In this document: positions 2,788 to 5,709 of the stretch, piece by piece
How the letters are laid out: each line of letters opens with the position of its first letter
Numbering within the stretch: position 1 is the first letter of the stretch
From: Actinomycetota bacterium
GTDB lineage: Bacteria; Actinomycetota; Thermoleophilia; Solirubrobacterales; Solirubrobacteraceae
Length of the DNA stretch: 5,709 nucleotides
Direction of reading: 5' to 3'
Assembly: GCA_019348575.1 (NCBI GenBank)
Contig: JAHWJE010000129.1
Coordinates: forward strand, 1-5,709
The notes under the pieces: generated by a model
The model's database searches: none
What the model saw: the letters and a program-made list of their open reading frames with translations, nothing else
What the model was told of the DNA's origin: nothing
Position numbers and translations under genes: made by a program

Positions 2788-2841
2788 TGCGATGCCGACC
2801 AAGCCGCGCGCCCTGACCCCGATTTGCGCCAGACTGTCCTC
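2788..2841 (+). promoter_or_regulatory. Short intergenic region with -10-like CAGACT
   Basis: The 54 bases between the gamma-synthase stop and the lipoprotein start contain CAGACT at 2830-2835, six bases before the GTG at 2842. It differs from TANNNT only in the first base and has the same spacing as the other starts in the window. No strong terminator hairpin is visible after the operon, so read-through from the upstream genes is also possible. Confidence 0.3.
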
Positions 2842-3279
2842 GTGCATCGCAACCGTCTTGCGCTCGTCGTGATTCTCGCGGCCGCTCTGGTCGCGATCGG
2901 CTGCGGCTCGGAGGAGAAGCAATCGACGTCGGAGCGCCAGTCGCAGGCGGGCCGGGCCGAGGACCGGGCCGAGACGCCGAAGCTGAAGCCCAACAGCGCG
3001 CGCGCGCAGATGATCGAGTGCATCGAGGGCGCCGGGTTCGAGGTGACGTCCGACGACAAGCCGACCCCCAAGCTGTCGTTCAAGAGCCCGGGCGGCACGC
3101 TCGAGGCGGTCGCCGTCATCCACCCCAACCGGGCTGCTGCTCGGAAGTCGGCGGTGCGGGGGCAGAGGAAGGGCGTGAACGTCGTCGCCTTTGGCCGTGC
3201 CGAAGTCATCCGGCACGCCGCCAAGGACGCTGAGGCCGGCGTCATCGTCAACTGCGTGGCGGCCGAGTACGGCGGCTGA
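2842..3279 (+). CDS. Small predicted lipoprotein of unknown function
   Basis: 145 residues. The start has a basic end (HRNR), a hydrophobic stretch (residues 6-19) and a lipobox-like VAIGC that would make C21 the lipidated cysteine, so the protein is likely anchored on the outer face of the cytoplasmic membrane. Residues 22-50 are charged and polar, a typical tether rich in E, Q, S and R. Residues ~52-145 look like a small folded domain with two further cysteines (C60 in MIECIEGAGFEV and C138 in VIVNCVAAEYGG) that could form a disulfide outside the cell. I do not recognise the domain. I chose GTG 2842 over the in-frame TTG at 2824 because it gives a normal signal peptide and sits six bases after a -10-like hexamer. 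It lies 54 bases after the transsulfuration operon, and nothing in it suggests a role in sulfur metabolism. Confidence 0.72.
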   Translation: MHRNRLALVVILAAALVAIGCGSEEKQSTSERQSQAGRAEDRAETPKLKPNSARAQMIECIEGAGFEVTSDDKPTPKLSFKSPGGTLEAVAVIHPNRAAARKSAVRGQRKGVNVVAFGRAEVIRHAAKDAEAGVIVNCVAAEYGG

Positions 3280-3319: not shown

Positions 3320-3325
3320 CAACGC

Positions 3326-3520
3326 ATGAGCGCGATCCCCGGCGAGCCACTGAAGCGGAAGCCGCACGAGCTGACCCTCAAGGACGGCCGCAAGCTGAAG
3401 CTCAAGCTCCCCGGGCTGCCGCCGCGCGTGGAGCCGCTCGCGACCGAGGAGCGCGCCGCCGCCGATCCGCCGCGCGACAACCCCGCTCCGCGCCACAACC
3501 CGAACCACGGCGCGTTCTGA
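3326..3520 (+). CDS. Small basic, proline-rich protein, unknown function
   Basis: 64 residues, beginning MSAIPGEPLKRKPHELTLKD. The N-terminal half is lysine-rich, with alternating Lys/Leu (GRKLKLKLPGLPP) that could form a beta-hairpin. The second half is disordered-looking (Glu/Ala then Pro/Asn/His-rich) and ends in HNPNHGAF. There is no signal peptide or membrane segment. It has its own leaderless -10 box, and its codons are strongly G/C-ending, which supports a real gene. I do not recognise the family. Just past its TGA (3518-3520) the coding signal continues in the +1 frame, so the annotated end may not be the whole story. Confidence 0.55.
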   Translation: MSAIPGEPLKRKPHELTLKDGRKLKLKLPGLPPRVEPLATEERAAADPPRDNPAPRHNPNHGAF

Positions 3521-3596: not shown

Positions 3597-3624
3597 CGCC
3601 GTCGCGCGCGGAGCGCGGGCGGGG

Positions 3625-3630
3625 TACGGC
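3625..3630 (+). promoter_or_regulatory. -10-like TACGGC before the mosaic ORF
   Basis: TACGGC matches the conserved first TA of a -10 box but has C in place of the final T. It is followed by exactly six bases and then the ATG at 3637, the same geometry as at 3314-3326. No Shine-Dalgarno sequence precedes the ATG. A weak leaderless promoter is plausible. Confidence 0.3.
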
Positions 3631-3636
3631 CCGCTG

Positions 3637-3875
3637 ATGTCGCTGCAGCATCTGCGGGACCTGCTCGTCGACACCGACTCGGTGGCCGGCCTGGCGGTCA
3701 CCACGCTGGCGATCGTCTTCGTCGCCGCCGGAGTTCGTCTGCTCGCCGTTCCGCTCGTCCGCCGACGGTACGCCGACGATCAGTACCGGCGCTACTGGTC
3801 GGCCAAGGTCGTCACCTACGTGATCGTTGCCGTCGCGCTGGTCGCGCTGCTGCTCGCCCCGACGCTTGCGGCGGC
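3637..3875 (+). other. MscS-type mechanosensitive channel, N-terminal fragment
   Basis: Residues 1-79 of the mosaic ORF. Two hydrophobic segments (about 17-39 and 57-79) are joined by a basic loop, with VRRRYADDQYRRYWSAKVVT before the second. An arginine-rich loop with an aromatic RYW-x-x-K element ahead of a membrane helix is typical of the TM1-TM2 region of actinobacterial MscS-like channels. The pore helix (TM3, Gly/Ala-rich) and the cytosolic beta domain that define MscS are absent, so this piece cannot form a channel alone. The family call rests on pattern recall over a short stretch and is moderate. The boundary with CbiB is blurred because both sides are hydrophobic Ala/Leu/Val. Confidence 0.5.
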
Positions 3876-5109
3876 CGGCGACCCGCGCCGCGGCCACCCC
3901 GTTGCCGGCTTCGGCCGCGCAGCCCAGGCGCTGGAGCGGCGGGTGTGGCGCGACGATCGTCTGGCCGGCGCTGCCTTCGTGGCTGCCCTGGTCGGAGTAC
4001 CCGCGGCGTGCACCTGGGCGATTGACCGTCGCGTCGCATCTGGCTGGGGCCGCGTTGCGCTGCGCGCCGGCGTGACGTGGGCCGCGCTCGGCGGGCGGTC
4101 GCTGCGGCGGGAGGCATCCGGCATCGCGGCCGCGCTCGGGCGCGACGACCTTGCACAGGCACGGCGGCGACTGCCTGCGCTCGTCGGACGCGACCCCTGG
4201 AAGCTCGACGCAGGTGAGATCAGCCGCGCGGTCGTCGAGTCGGTCGCGGAGAACACGAGCGACGCTGTCGTGGCGCCGTTGGTGTGGGGGTCGCTCGCGG
4301 GGCCGGCGGCGATCGTTGCGTACCGCTGCGCGAACACACTCGACGCGATGGTCGGGCACCGAAGTGCCCGGTACCAACGTTTCGGCTGGGCCGCCGCGCG
4401 GCTCGACGACGTGCTGAACTGGCTGCCGGCGCGGCTCGGCGCGGCAGTGACTGGTGCGGTCGCGCCCGCTGTCGACGGCAGCCCGCGGGCGGCCTGGTCC
4501 GCCGCCGTGCGCGACGGGGGCAACCACCCCAGTCCGAACGCAGGCCGGATGGAGGCCGCGTTCGCCGGCGCGCTGTCGGTGCGTCTGGGCGGCACGAACG
4601 TCTACGGCGACCGTGTGGAGGTCCGCGGCCCGCTGGGTGGCGGAGCATCGCCCGACGCCACCACCATCACTCGGGCCGTGCGCCTGTCGAAGGTGGTCGG
4701 CGCGGCGGTCGCGGTGCTCGCGCTGGTCGGGTCGCTGGCCGGGATGAGCCTGCTGCTCGCGCGGGACGCCCTGCCCGGCGACGCCCTGTACGGCTTCAAG
4801 CGCACCGCGGAGGCCGCCTCCCTCGGCCTCACCTTCGGCGACGAGTCCAAGGCGCTCAAGCACCTCGAGGTGCCGACCGCGGATCCGTCGCTGAATAGAC
4901 TGTTCCGACCGCCGGCGAGGTTGCGGCGTCAGGCCCGGACCCCCACCGACGGGGGTTGCAAAGCCGCCTGCTGGACTTCACCCATGCGCTGCGCCGTGCC
5001 GGGGTGCCGGTGGCGGTCAGCGACGGGCTGGACGCCATGCGCGCGACCGCCGAGGTCGACCTGCTGTCGCGCCGGCAACTGCACGAGGCGCTCGCCGCGA
5101 CGATGGTGA
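3637..5109 (+). CDS. Mosaic ORF: MscS-like N-terminus, CbiB core, DUF5667 fragment, out-of-frame tail
   Basis: A 490-residue reading frame that does not match one protein family. Residues 1 to ~72 resemble the first membrane helices of an MscS-type small-conductance channel. Residues ~81-355 are a nearly complete CbiB (adenosylcobinamide-phosphate synthase). Residues ~355-411 match a short part of DUF5667, which is found on actinobacterial anti-sigma-like proteins. From ~412 to the end the frame crosses an intergenic stretch and then overlaps the VWA gene in the wrong phase, giving Arg/Cys/Pro-rich non-protein sequence. The first two joins are in frame and both fall in hydrophobic helices, where unrelated proteins look alike. 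I read this as fused gene remnants (genomic deletions or an assembly join). A working MscS-CbiB fusion is possible in principle because only CbiB's first helix is replaced. The parts are listed separately below. Confidence 0.6.
   Translation: MSLQHLRDLLVDTDSVAGLAVTTLAIVFVAAGVRLLAVPLVRRRYADDQYRRYWSAKVVTYVIVAVALVALLLAPTLAAAGDPRRGHPVAGFGRAAQALERRVWRDDRLAGAAFVAALVGVPAACTWAIDRRVASGWGRVALRAGVTWAALGGRSLRREASGIAAALGRDDLAQARRRLPALVGRDPWKLDAGEISRAVVESVAENTSDAVVAPLVWGSLAGPAAIVAYRCANTLDAMVGHRSARYQRFGWAAARLDDVLNWLPARLGAAVTGAVAPAVDGSPRAAWSAAVRDGGNHPSPNAGRMEAAFAGALSVRLGGTNVYGDRVEVRGPLGGGASPDATTITRAVRLSKVVGAAVAVLALVGSLAGMSLLLARDALPGDALYGFKRTAEAASLGLTFGDESKALKHLEVPTADPSLNRLFRPPARLRRQARTPTDGGCKAACWTSPMRCAVPGCRWRSATGWTPCARPPRSTCCRAGNCTRRSPRRW
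3877..4710 (+). other. cbiB: Adenosylcobinamide-phosphate synthase (CbiB/CobD) core
   Basis: Residues ~81-358 of the mosaic ORF. CbiB is a membrane enzyme that attaches (R)-1-aminopropan-2-ol phosphate, or a related aminoalcohol, to adenosylcobyric acid in cobalamin synthesis. Visible family motifs in order are GDPRRGHPVAGFGR (81-94), RSLRREA (154-160), RAVVESVAENTSDAVVAP (197-214), NTLDAMVGHRS (233-243), RFGWAAARLDDVLNWLPARL (248-267), HPSPNAGRMEAAFAGAL (297-313) and LGGTNVYGDRVE (318-329). About 275 residues are present out of the usual ~300, lacking only the native start and last helix. No other cobalamin gene and no cobalamin riboswitch is near, so this is an orphan copy. Whether the piece is active with a foreign first helix is unknown. 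Confidence 0.85.
4711..4868 (+). other. DUF5667 (anti-sigma-like) fragment
   Basis: Residues ~359-411 of the mosaic ORF: a hydrophobic helix (LALVGSLAGMSLLLA), then DALPGDALYGFKRTAEAA and LGLTFGDESKALKHLEV. The A-L-P-G-D-x-L-Y-x-x-K-R motif after a membrane helix is the hallmark of DUF5667 proteins, which in Actinobacteria often follow ECF sigma factor genes. Only about 50 residues remain. The N-terminal cytosolic part that would bind a sigma factor and most of the C-terminal extracellular part are missing. The frame then runs into sequence that no longer fits the family. Confidence 0.6.
4896..4901 (+). promoter_or_regulatory. -10 box TAGACT upstream of the VWA gene
   Basis: TAGACT is a good TANNNT match and lies 54 bases before the TTG at 4956. 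Its first three bases are also an in-frame TAG stop for the VWA frame, so the VWA protein cannot begin further upstream. Six bases downstream, where other genes here have their start codon, the in-frame codon is ACC, so a leaderless start is not supported at this site. A 5' leader of about 48 bases is more likely. Confidence 0.4.
4939..4956 (+). promoter_or_regulatory. Hairpin covering the VWA ribosome-binding region
   Basis: ACCCCC (4939-4944), loop ACCGAC, GGGGGT (4951-4956) forms a perfect six-pair GC stem. It covers the only purine-rich stretch before the TTG start and the first base of that codon, so it could limit translation initiation. With no U-run it is unlikely to be a terminator. 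It might be chance in GC-rich DNA. Confidence 0.35.
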
Positions 5110-5709
5110 AGTCCGCCGGCCACCGCCCCGCGTTCGACACGTTGTTCGACGTCTACTTCCCCCCGCGGGGTGGGACGTCGCCGGAACATCACGAGGCGTC
5201 GGAGGATCGCGACGTCGGCGACTTCCTCGCGGAGCTCGTCGACGAGTTGCTGGAGGGTGACGACGCCGCGATTCGCCGGCTCGCGCACGAGGCGGTGGAG
5301 ACGTTCGGCCGCGTCGAGGGCCGCGACGGCGCCCCGGAGTACTTCTCGTACCGGGTGTTCCGCAACATCAACATCGCCGGCATCCTGCGCCGCGCGCTGA
5401 TGACTGCGGGGGAGAGCGACGACGCGCTGACGCAGCGGCTGCTCACCGACGAGCTGGAGCAGCGGCTGCGCCACTTCCGCGAGGAGATCGACGCGGAGAT
5501 CCGCCGGCGCATGGTGTTGCGCCGCGGCGCCGACGAGGTGGCGCGCAAGCTTGTGCGCGCGCTGCCGGAGGACGTCGACTTCTTCTCCGTCAGCGCCGAC
5601 GAGCAGGCCGAGATGCGCCGGGCGGTCAAGCCGCTGGCGCGCCGGCTCGCCACGCGGCTTGCGGTCAAGCGCAAGCGTGCGCGTCGCGGCCGCCTGGACA
5701 CCCGCCGCA
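4956..5709 (+). CDS. CoxE-like VWA-containing protein, N-terminal part (3' end outside window)
   Basis: Open to the right edge with 251 complete codons. The sequence matches the N-terminal helical region of actinobacterial VWA/CoxE-like proteins: LLDFTHALRRAGVPVAVSDG (5-24), LAATMVKSAGHRPAFDTLFD (46-65) leading into VYFPPRG (66-72), an acidic variable linker (~74-104), FGRVEGRDG (117-125), ALPEDVDFF (202-210) and LARRLATRLAVKRKRARRGR (227-246). The VWA metal-binding domain (DxSxS) would follow just past the window. Family members usually pair with a MoxR-type AAA+ ATPase and act in maturation or insertion of cofactor or metal centres, as with CO dehydrogenase CoxD/CoxE; no ATPase is visible here. 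TTG at 4956 is the only standard start between the in-frame TAG (4896-4898) and the conserved region. The mosaic ORF overlaps its first ~50 codons in another frame; that overlap is spurious. Confidence 0.85.
   Translation, partial: MQSRLLDFTHALRRAGVPVAVSDGLDAMRATAEVDLLSRRQLHEALAATMVKSAGHRPAFDTLFDVYFPPRGGTSPEHHEASEDRDVGDFLAELVDELLEGDDAAIRRLAHEAVETFGRVEGRDGAPEYFSYRVFRNINIAGILRRALMTAGESDDALTQRLLTDELEQRLRHFREEIDAEIRRRMVLRRGADEVARKLVRALPEDVDFFSVSADEQAEMRRAVKPLARRLATRLAVKRKRARRGRLDTRR

Follow-up and report, generated by a model that had tools for sequence, protein, structure and literature searches.

A 490-codon open frame with MscS, CbiB and DUF5667 sequences is very probably the product of a chimeric contig

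The window (the whole stretch of DNA that was analysed, 5,709 nucleotides) carries on its forward strand an open frame of 490 codons at 3637–5109, with an ATG start and no internal stop, as the preliminary description had reported. To judge from the sequence, the window is very probably a chimeric contig in which pieces of several bacteria have been stitched together, and the frame is then not a gene. The contig would mimic a fusion protein because the joins happen to keep one frame; with a chimera as the most likely reading, cells would not be expected to make such a protein. The pieces and their joins are itemized below, with break points and shared words estimated from relatives.

3637–5109, forward strand: the probably chimeric open frame of 490 codons (frame reading; entry P0001).
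3622–3849, forward strand: 5′ portion of a Solirubrobacteraceae-type gene for an MscS-family channel, with coding from 3637 (DNA of L024; P0002 amino acids).
3850–3875, forward strand: join 1, a hydrophobic stretch (the MscS match stops at 3849 and the CbiB DNA matches start at 3876–3877).
3871–4721, forward strand: core of CbiB (adenosylcobinamide-phosphate synthase) without its own N-terminal segment (PF03186, TIGR00380, P0125 and tree).
4698–4721, forward strand: join 2, a stretch matched from both the CbiB and the DUF5667 sides (identity of relatives).
4698–4868, forward strand: DUF5667 gene fragment of 171 bases, Actinophytocola type (DNA of L021; up to 98% amino acid identity).
4849–4868, forward strand: join 3, AAGGCGCTCAAGCACCTCGA (common to the A. 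xanthii DUF5667 gene and the G593 AAA-ATPase end).
4849–4897, forward strand: KALKHLEVPTADPSLN, the 3′ terminus of an AAA-ATPase gene, which the chimera reads in phase (frame ends of L065, L066 and L067; PF07728).
4898–5709, forward strand: 5′ part of a CoxE-like VWA gene, running off the contig end (G530:C278; PF05762 in L065).

The pieces are cut sharply apart by local BLAST of the window against 124 loci, which is the source of the DNA identities for the MscS, CbiB, DUF5667 and VWA pieces. The DNA matches of relatives place the joins at about 3849–3876, 4698–4721 and 4849–4868, in agreement with the places proposed earlier. Longer counterparts are found as separate proteins (P0002, 332 aa; P0125, 307 aa; P0007, 432 aa). 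The nearest kin of the pieces lie in different lineages, and none of the relatives compared is an identical parent of a piece.

Starting at the 5′ end, the frame begins as an MscS-family gene. The DNA of 3622–3849 is 83% identical to L024 of the Solirubrobacteraceae MAG YX3bin26 (in genome G001), and residues 1–85 are 94, 86, 77 and 74% identical to four PF00924-bearing proteins besides the window's own. PF00924 is present in P0002–P0005; in P0002, an intact MscS protein of 332 aa that is 94% identical to the MscS start, it lies at residues 111–153. Pfam finds no PF00924 match in the 490-aa frame, so that the MscS-like start recognized earlier is borne out by these identities of 74–94% and not by a Pfam MscS match itself. 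The match is followed by join 1, where 3850–3875 matches neither the MscS nor the CbiB relatives examined; no word common to both sides could be demonstrated there, and the stretch has no source among the relatives compared.

The strand then continues as CbiB. CobD_CbiB (PF03186) is matched by residues 79–350 (3871–4686) with E = 4.1e-86 and 289.2 bits, against a Pfam cut-off of 34.4 bits. The match covers profile positions 10–281 of 282, which upholds the description of a nearly full CbiB core. The family cut-offs of TIGR00380 (172.5, cut-off 165.9) and NF002276 (382.5, cut-off 381) are also exceeded. From 3876 to about 4721 the DNA is 67–78% identical to CbiB genes (BLAST rows above 80 bits), and the encoded sequence is 74% identical to P0125. 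The own N-terminal segment of CbiB, with its conserved Asp, is absent from the frame. Among 119 CbiB relatives, 11 of which have no scorable motif, an Asp is located four residues before the GDP motif in all 108 that could be scored; in the window this residue is Leu.

In a CbiB tree of 36 rows the window's CbiB is joined with P0125 and P0126, both metagenomic proteins (support 99/97), within a wider group (93/88) that takes in P0129, P0151 and P0165, named Egibacteraceae by their sources. Four genomes of the family Solirubrobacteraceae form a separate clade (100/99), as do five Actinophytocola-type genomes (100/97). This grouping sets the CbiB piece apart from the MscS parent as well as from the DUF5667 parent.

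The next piece, 4698–4868, is 92.4% identical in DNA to Actinophytocola xanthii (L021) over 171 bases, and the corresponding residues (about 355–412) are up to 98% identical to DUF5667 proteins. PF18915 is matched at residues 378–412 by profile positions 2–36 of 99, the first third of the domain, scoring 23.6 bits over the whole frame, which falls short of the Pfam cut-off of 27, and 28.0 bits when the piece is taken alone. The frame does not contain a whole DUF5667 domain above the cut-off; the partial match and the A. xanthii identity do confirm the fragment that had been recognized. It had also been labelled an anti-sigma domain. That label is not sustained by Pfam, which gives DUF5667 as a domain of unknown function, and a literature search on DUF5667 found nothing.

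Joins 2 and 3 were followed with hand-picked panels of 11 DUF5667 and 5 CbiB loci, from which L080 was left out as it gave no gapless alignment there. At join 2 the mean identity of the DUF5667 relatives in 12-base bins rises from 0.31 (4684–4695) through 0.70 to 0.84. That of the CbiB relatives is 0.75 (4684–4695), 0.63 and 0.75 (4708–4719), then 0.42, 0.58, 0.35 and 0.28. The DUF5667 relatives remain at 0.73–0.92 up to 4863 and then fall to 0.57, 0.37 and 0.21. They cease matching after 4868, although a few distant ones are carried by BLAST to 4885. At join 3 the A. xanthii DUF5667 gene has all 20 bases of the shared word AAGGCGCTCAAGCACCTCGA, and G593 has 19 of them at its AAA-ATPase end, directly before its VWA gene; L065, L067 and L118 have 15, 16 and 16 of the 20 bases, respectively. 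At both joins the switch of parent is abrupt and falls within a stretch common to the two sides.

On the AAA-ATPase side of join 3, 12 loci were tried. Those of L066 (26/32), L118 (24/32) and L067 (21/32) are the only ones placed before a VWA gene, while the other nine are placed elsewhere with 19–21/32. Taken by itself, the score of L067 does not exceed chance, because nine loci elsewhere reach the same range, and its placement rests on its reading frame. The frames before the VWA gene end as KGLKHLSVPPDPSLN in L065 (G509), KAIKHLDVPPDPSLN in L066 (G593) and KALKHLSVPPDPSLN in L067 (G604), each followed by the stop, and as KALAHLDVPAQ and stop in G530. PF07728 in L065 and L118 identifies this frame as an AAA ATPase (Pfam), and PF05762 (VWA_CoxE) is matched by the full orthologous VWA frame of L065.

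The DNA of 4898–5699 is 80% identical to G530:C278, and the VWA protein 83%. Beyond the ATPase end, the chimera runs through the VWA gene out of its coding phase and stops at 5109. The out-of-phase tail reported earlier is accordingly correct for the VWA part and incorrect for HLEVPTADPSLN, which is the in-frame end of the AAA-ATPase gene. Within 4885–4960 the AAA-ATPase stop is one base out of frame relative to the relatives, and the VWA start of G530 is absent at the aligned place in the window. A MoxR-type ATPase next to a CoxE-type VWA protein is a known pairing. An AAA-ATPase-like frame precedes the VWA frame in all four neighbourhoods read (L065, L066, L067 and L118), and at E ≤ 0.001, with weak matches counted, the CoxE-like VWA frame (L064/L118, G530:C278) is matched in 166 of the 396 genomes that sample the phylum.

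The MscS–CbiB–DUF5667 architecture was absent among the matches listed in three protein searches, made with the N-terminal, CbiB and DUF5667 parts; those for the MscS and CbiB parts scored about 8000 candidates with the most words in common. The CbiB part gave 119 further proteins among the best 120 of 7925 over threshold, with PF03186 only, and the DUF5667 end 119 further proteins among the best 120 of 320 over threshold, with PF18915 only. One protein, P0207 (463 aa), was considered as a possible fusion and set aside, its extension being by eye unlike MscS. A literature search for a fusion of CbiB with a mechanosensitive channel brought up one genome paper.

Twenty-six genome loci were found with the frame, 20 for the CbiB part (within residues 39–367), five for the DUF5667 part and one for the MscS part. 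The same domain order was not seen among the rows listed for genome contigs and whole genomes, and neither was the MscS–CbiB order that might have been shared by related genomes. In G001 the MscS match is on C12 and the CbiB match on C4; in G002 CbiB is matched on C127 and DUF5667 on C136. CbiB and DUF5667-side matches are on different contigs in G002, G003, G004 and G006. In G004, G008 and G009 the CbiB matches continue beyond the CbiB end, passing through 3, 1 and 1 stop codons, and were interpreted as over-extended. G004 and G008 have their DUF5667-side matches on other contigs, and G009 has one match only.

An assembly join, one of the possibilities raised in the preliminary description, is supported by these differing kin lineages, abrupt parent switches and separate gene places in the genomes compared, together with the lack of an equal architecture among the proteins listed. 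The record probably derives from a metagenome. The joining would be the work of a short-read assembler or, with lower probability, of chimeric library fragments, and would involve three genomes at the least and probably four: an MscS gene of Solirubrobacteraceae, CbiB of a further lineage, an Actinophytocola-type DUF5667 gene and the AAA-ATPase/VWA pair of another lineage. The count is given in this form because CbiB has no match in G530, the nearest VWA genome, yet G530 may be incomplete. At each of joins 2 and 3 the two parents would share a stretch of about 20 bases by chance. Short assembler words are a more plausible cause of the joins than the library, and the bridge may have been the DUF5667 piece, whose 171 bases are about the length of one read.

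That all three joins are in frame, as had been pointed out, is real, and a tendency of chance-shared words to agree in phase accounts for it only in part. In 28 actinobacterial loci (179 frames, 227,991 bases) such words have the same codon phase in 175 of 284 cases at 16 bases, 24 of 42 at 18 and 2 of 13 at 20. Compared with the expected one third, this is an excess at 16 bases (P = 2e-22) and at 18 (P = 0.001), with none at 20. Frame pairs alike by blastp (E of 1 or less) were left out, amounting to 73, 54 and 47 words at 16, 18 and 20 bases. A strong bias (41/51 for words of at least 18 bases, 13/16 at 20) was rejected, being weaker at 18 and not seen at 20 after the recount; the 41/51 count was too high because one region was counted twice and six non-actinobacterial loci, and possibly distant homologues, were included. 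Three in-frame joins would arise by chance with a probability of about 0.19 at the 18-base rate and about 0.04 at one third, and are somewhat lucky. The rest of the coincidence may partly reflect selection, the contig having been noticed since its frame is open.

Library molecules that became chimeric during ligation, PCR or whole-genome amplification would be one way of making such a contig, included in the chimeric reading and rather unlikely. Template switching at short shared words would give the same overlaps at joins 2 and 3, but three independent joins would be needed on a 5.7-kb contig, each with enough copies for assembly, and the 171-base DUF5667 piece would fit an assembler bridge through one or a few reads.

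A real gene fusion in one bacterium, in which CbiB would carry a membrane anchor from MscS at its N terminus and a helix from DUF5667 at its C terminus, is highly improbable. The unbroken frame with its three joins in phase, the CbiB core scoring over the TIGR00380 and NF002276 cut-offs, and a phase bias that covers the in-frame joins in part only would be consistent with it. Against this, the pieces match different genomes at 80–92% DNA identity, with CbiB from yet another lineage, the equal domain order is absent among the proteins listed, the Asp of the N-terminal CbiB segment is gone and the frame ends in out-of-phase VWA coding sequence. The membrane fusion suggested earlier is not supported, given the differing lineages and the lack of a listed protein with equal architecture. 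We consider it scarcely credible that a real CbiB gene acquired the MscS anchor and DUF5667 helix through recombination between lineages at short shared words.

The suggestion of remnants joined within one genome, here four gene remnants united by deletions and horizontal transfer, draws on a gene order that seems readily changed, because the window's upstream genes are scattered in those genomes of the Solirubrobacteraceae family that were searched, but it has very little to recommend it because the MscS, DUF5667 and VWA pieces match different genomes at 80–92% DNA identity, and the pieces exhibit no decay (the DUF5667 piece being 92.4% identical to A. xanthii and the CbiB core profile being kept).

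Upstream of the frame, a cystathionine beta-synthase gene (TIGR01137, 552.6 bits, cut-off 510.25) and a cystathionine gamma-synthase/lyase-like gene adjoin at 218–2787. They are followed by a putative lipoprotein gene at 2824–3279 (type judged by eye) and a 64-aa gene at 3326–3520. The DNA of 349–2781, comprising both cystathionine genes, is 79% identical to G023, and that of 3323–3512 is 89% identical to G026, both genomes being drawn from the family of G001. Relatives of the 2824–3279 and 3326–3520 genes are on different contigs of G026 (C17 and C166), and 5–211 of the window is 73% identical to G001:C12:213845-214042. The gamma-synthase-like gene has fewer residues near WPGF than we take to be usual for the family; an extra join there was rejected, as G023 is equally short near WPGF. 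Among plasmid records only the cysteine synthase part was matched, twice and weakly.

The window illustrates the way in which false fusion proteins may come into sequence collections, where the frame is already present as P0001 (a single-member entry with the CbiB domain, from one contig 5709 bases long). An open frame over a join is weak evidence of fusion where the pieces differ in lineage of origin.

Each piece of the proposed chimera resembles a known family in part. About the first 70 residues are like MscS channels (PF00924), with up to 94% identity, but the frame has no region equivalent to the PF00924-bearing residues 111–153 of P0002. The likeness to CbiB/CobD (PF03186, TIGR00380) extends over residues 79–350 (profile positions 10–281 of 282), while the MscS sequence and the 3850–3875 stretch stand in place of the N-terminal segment with its Asp. 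About residues 355–412 are like DUF5667 (PF18915) of Actinophytocola, up to 98%, covering profile positions 2–36 of 99 where the 432-aa relative P0007 covers 2–54, and both flanks of the gene are missing. Shared k-mers can give rise to chimeric contigs, according to PMC7299287. Compared with the chimeric metagenome contigs described in PMC7299287 and PMC7881036, the window is alike in that several genomes would be joined at short shared words, and differs in that its three joins keep one frame and look like a protein fusion.
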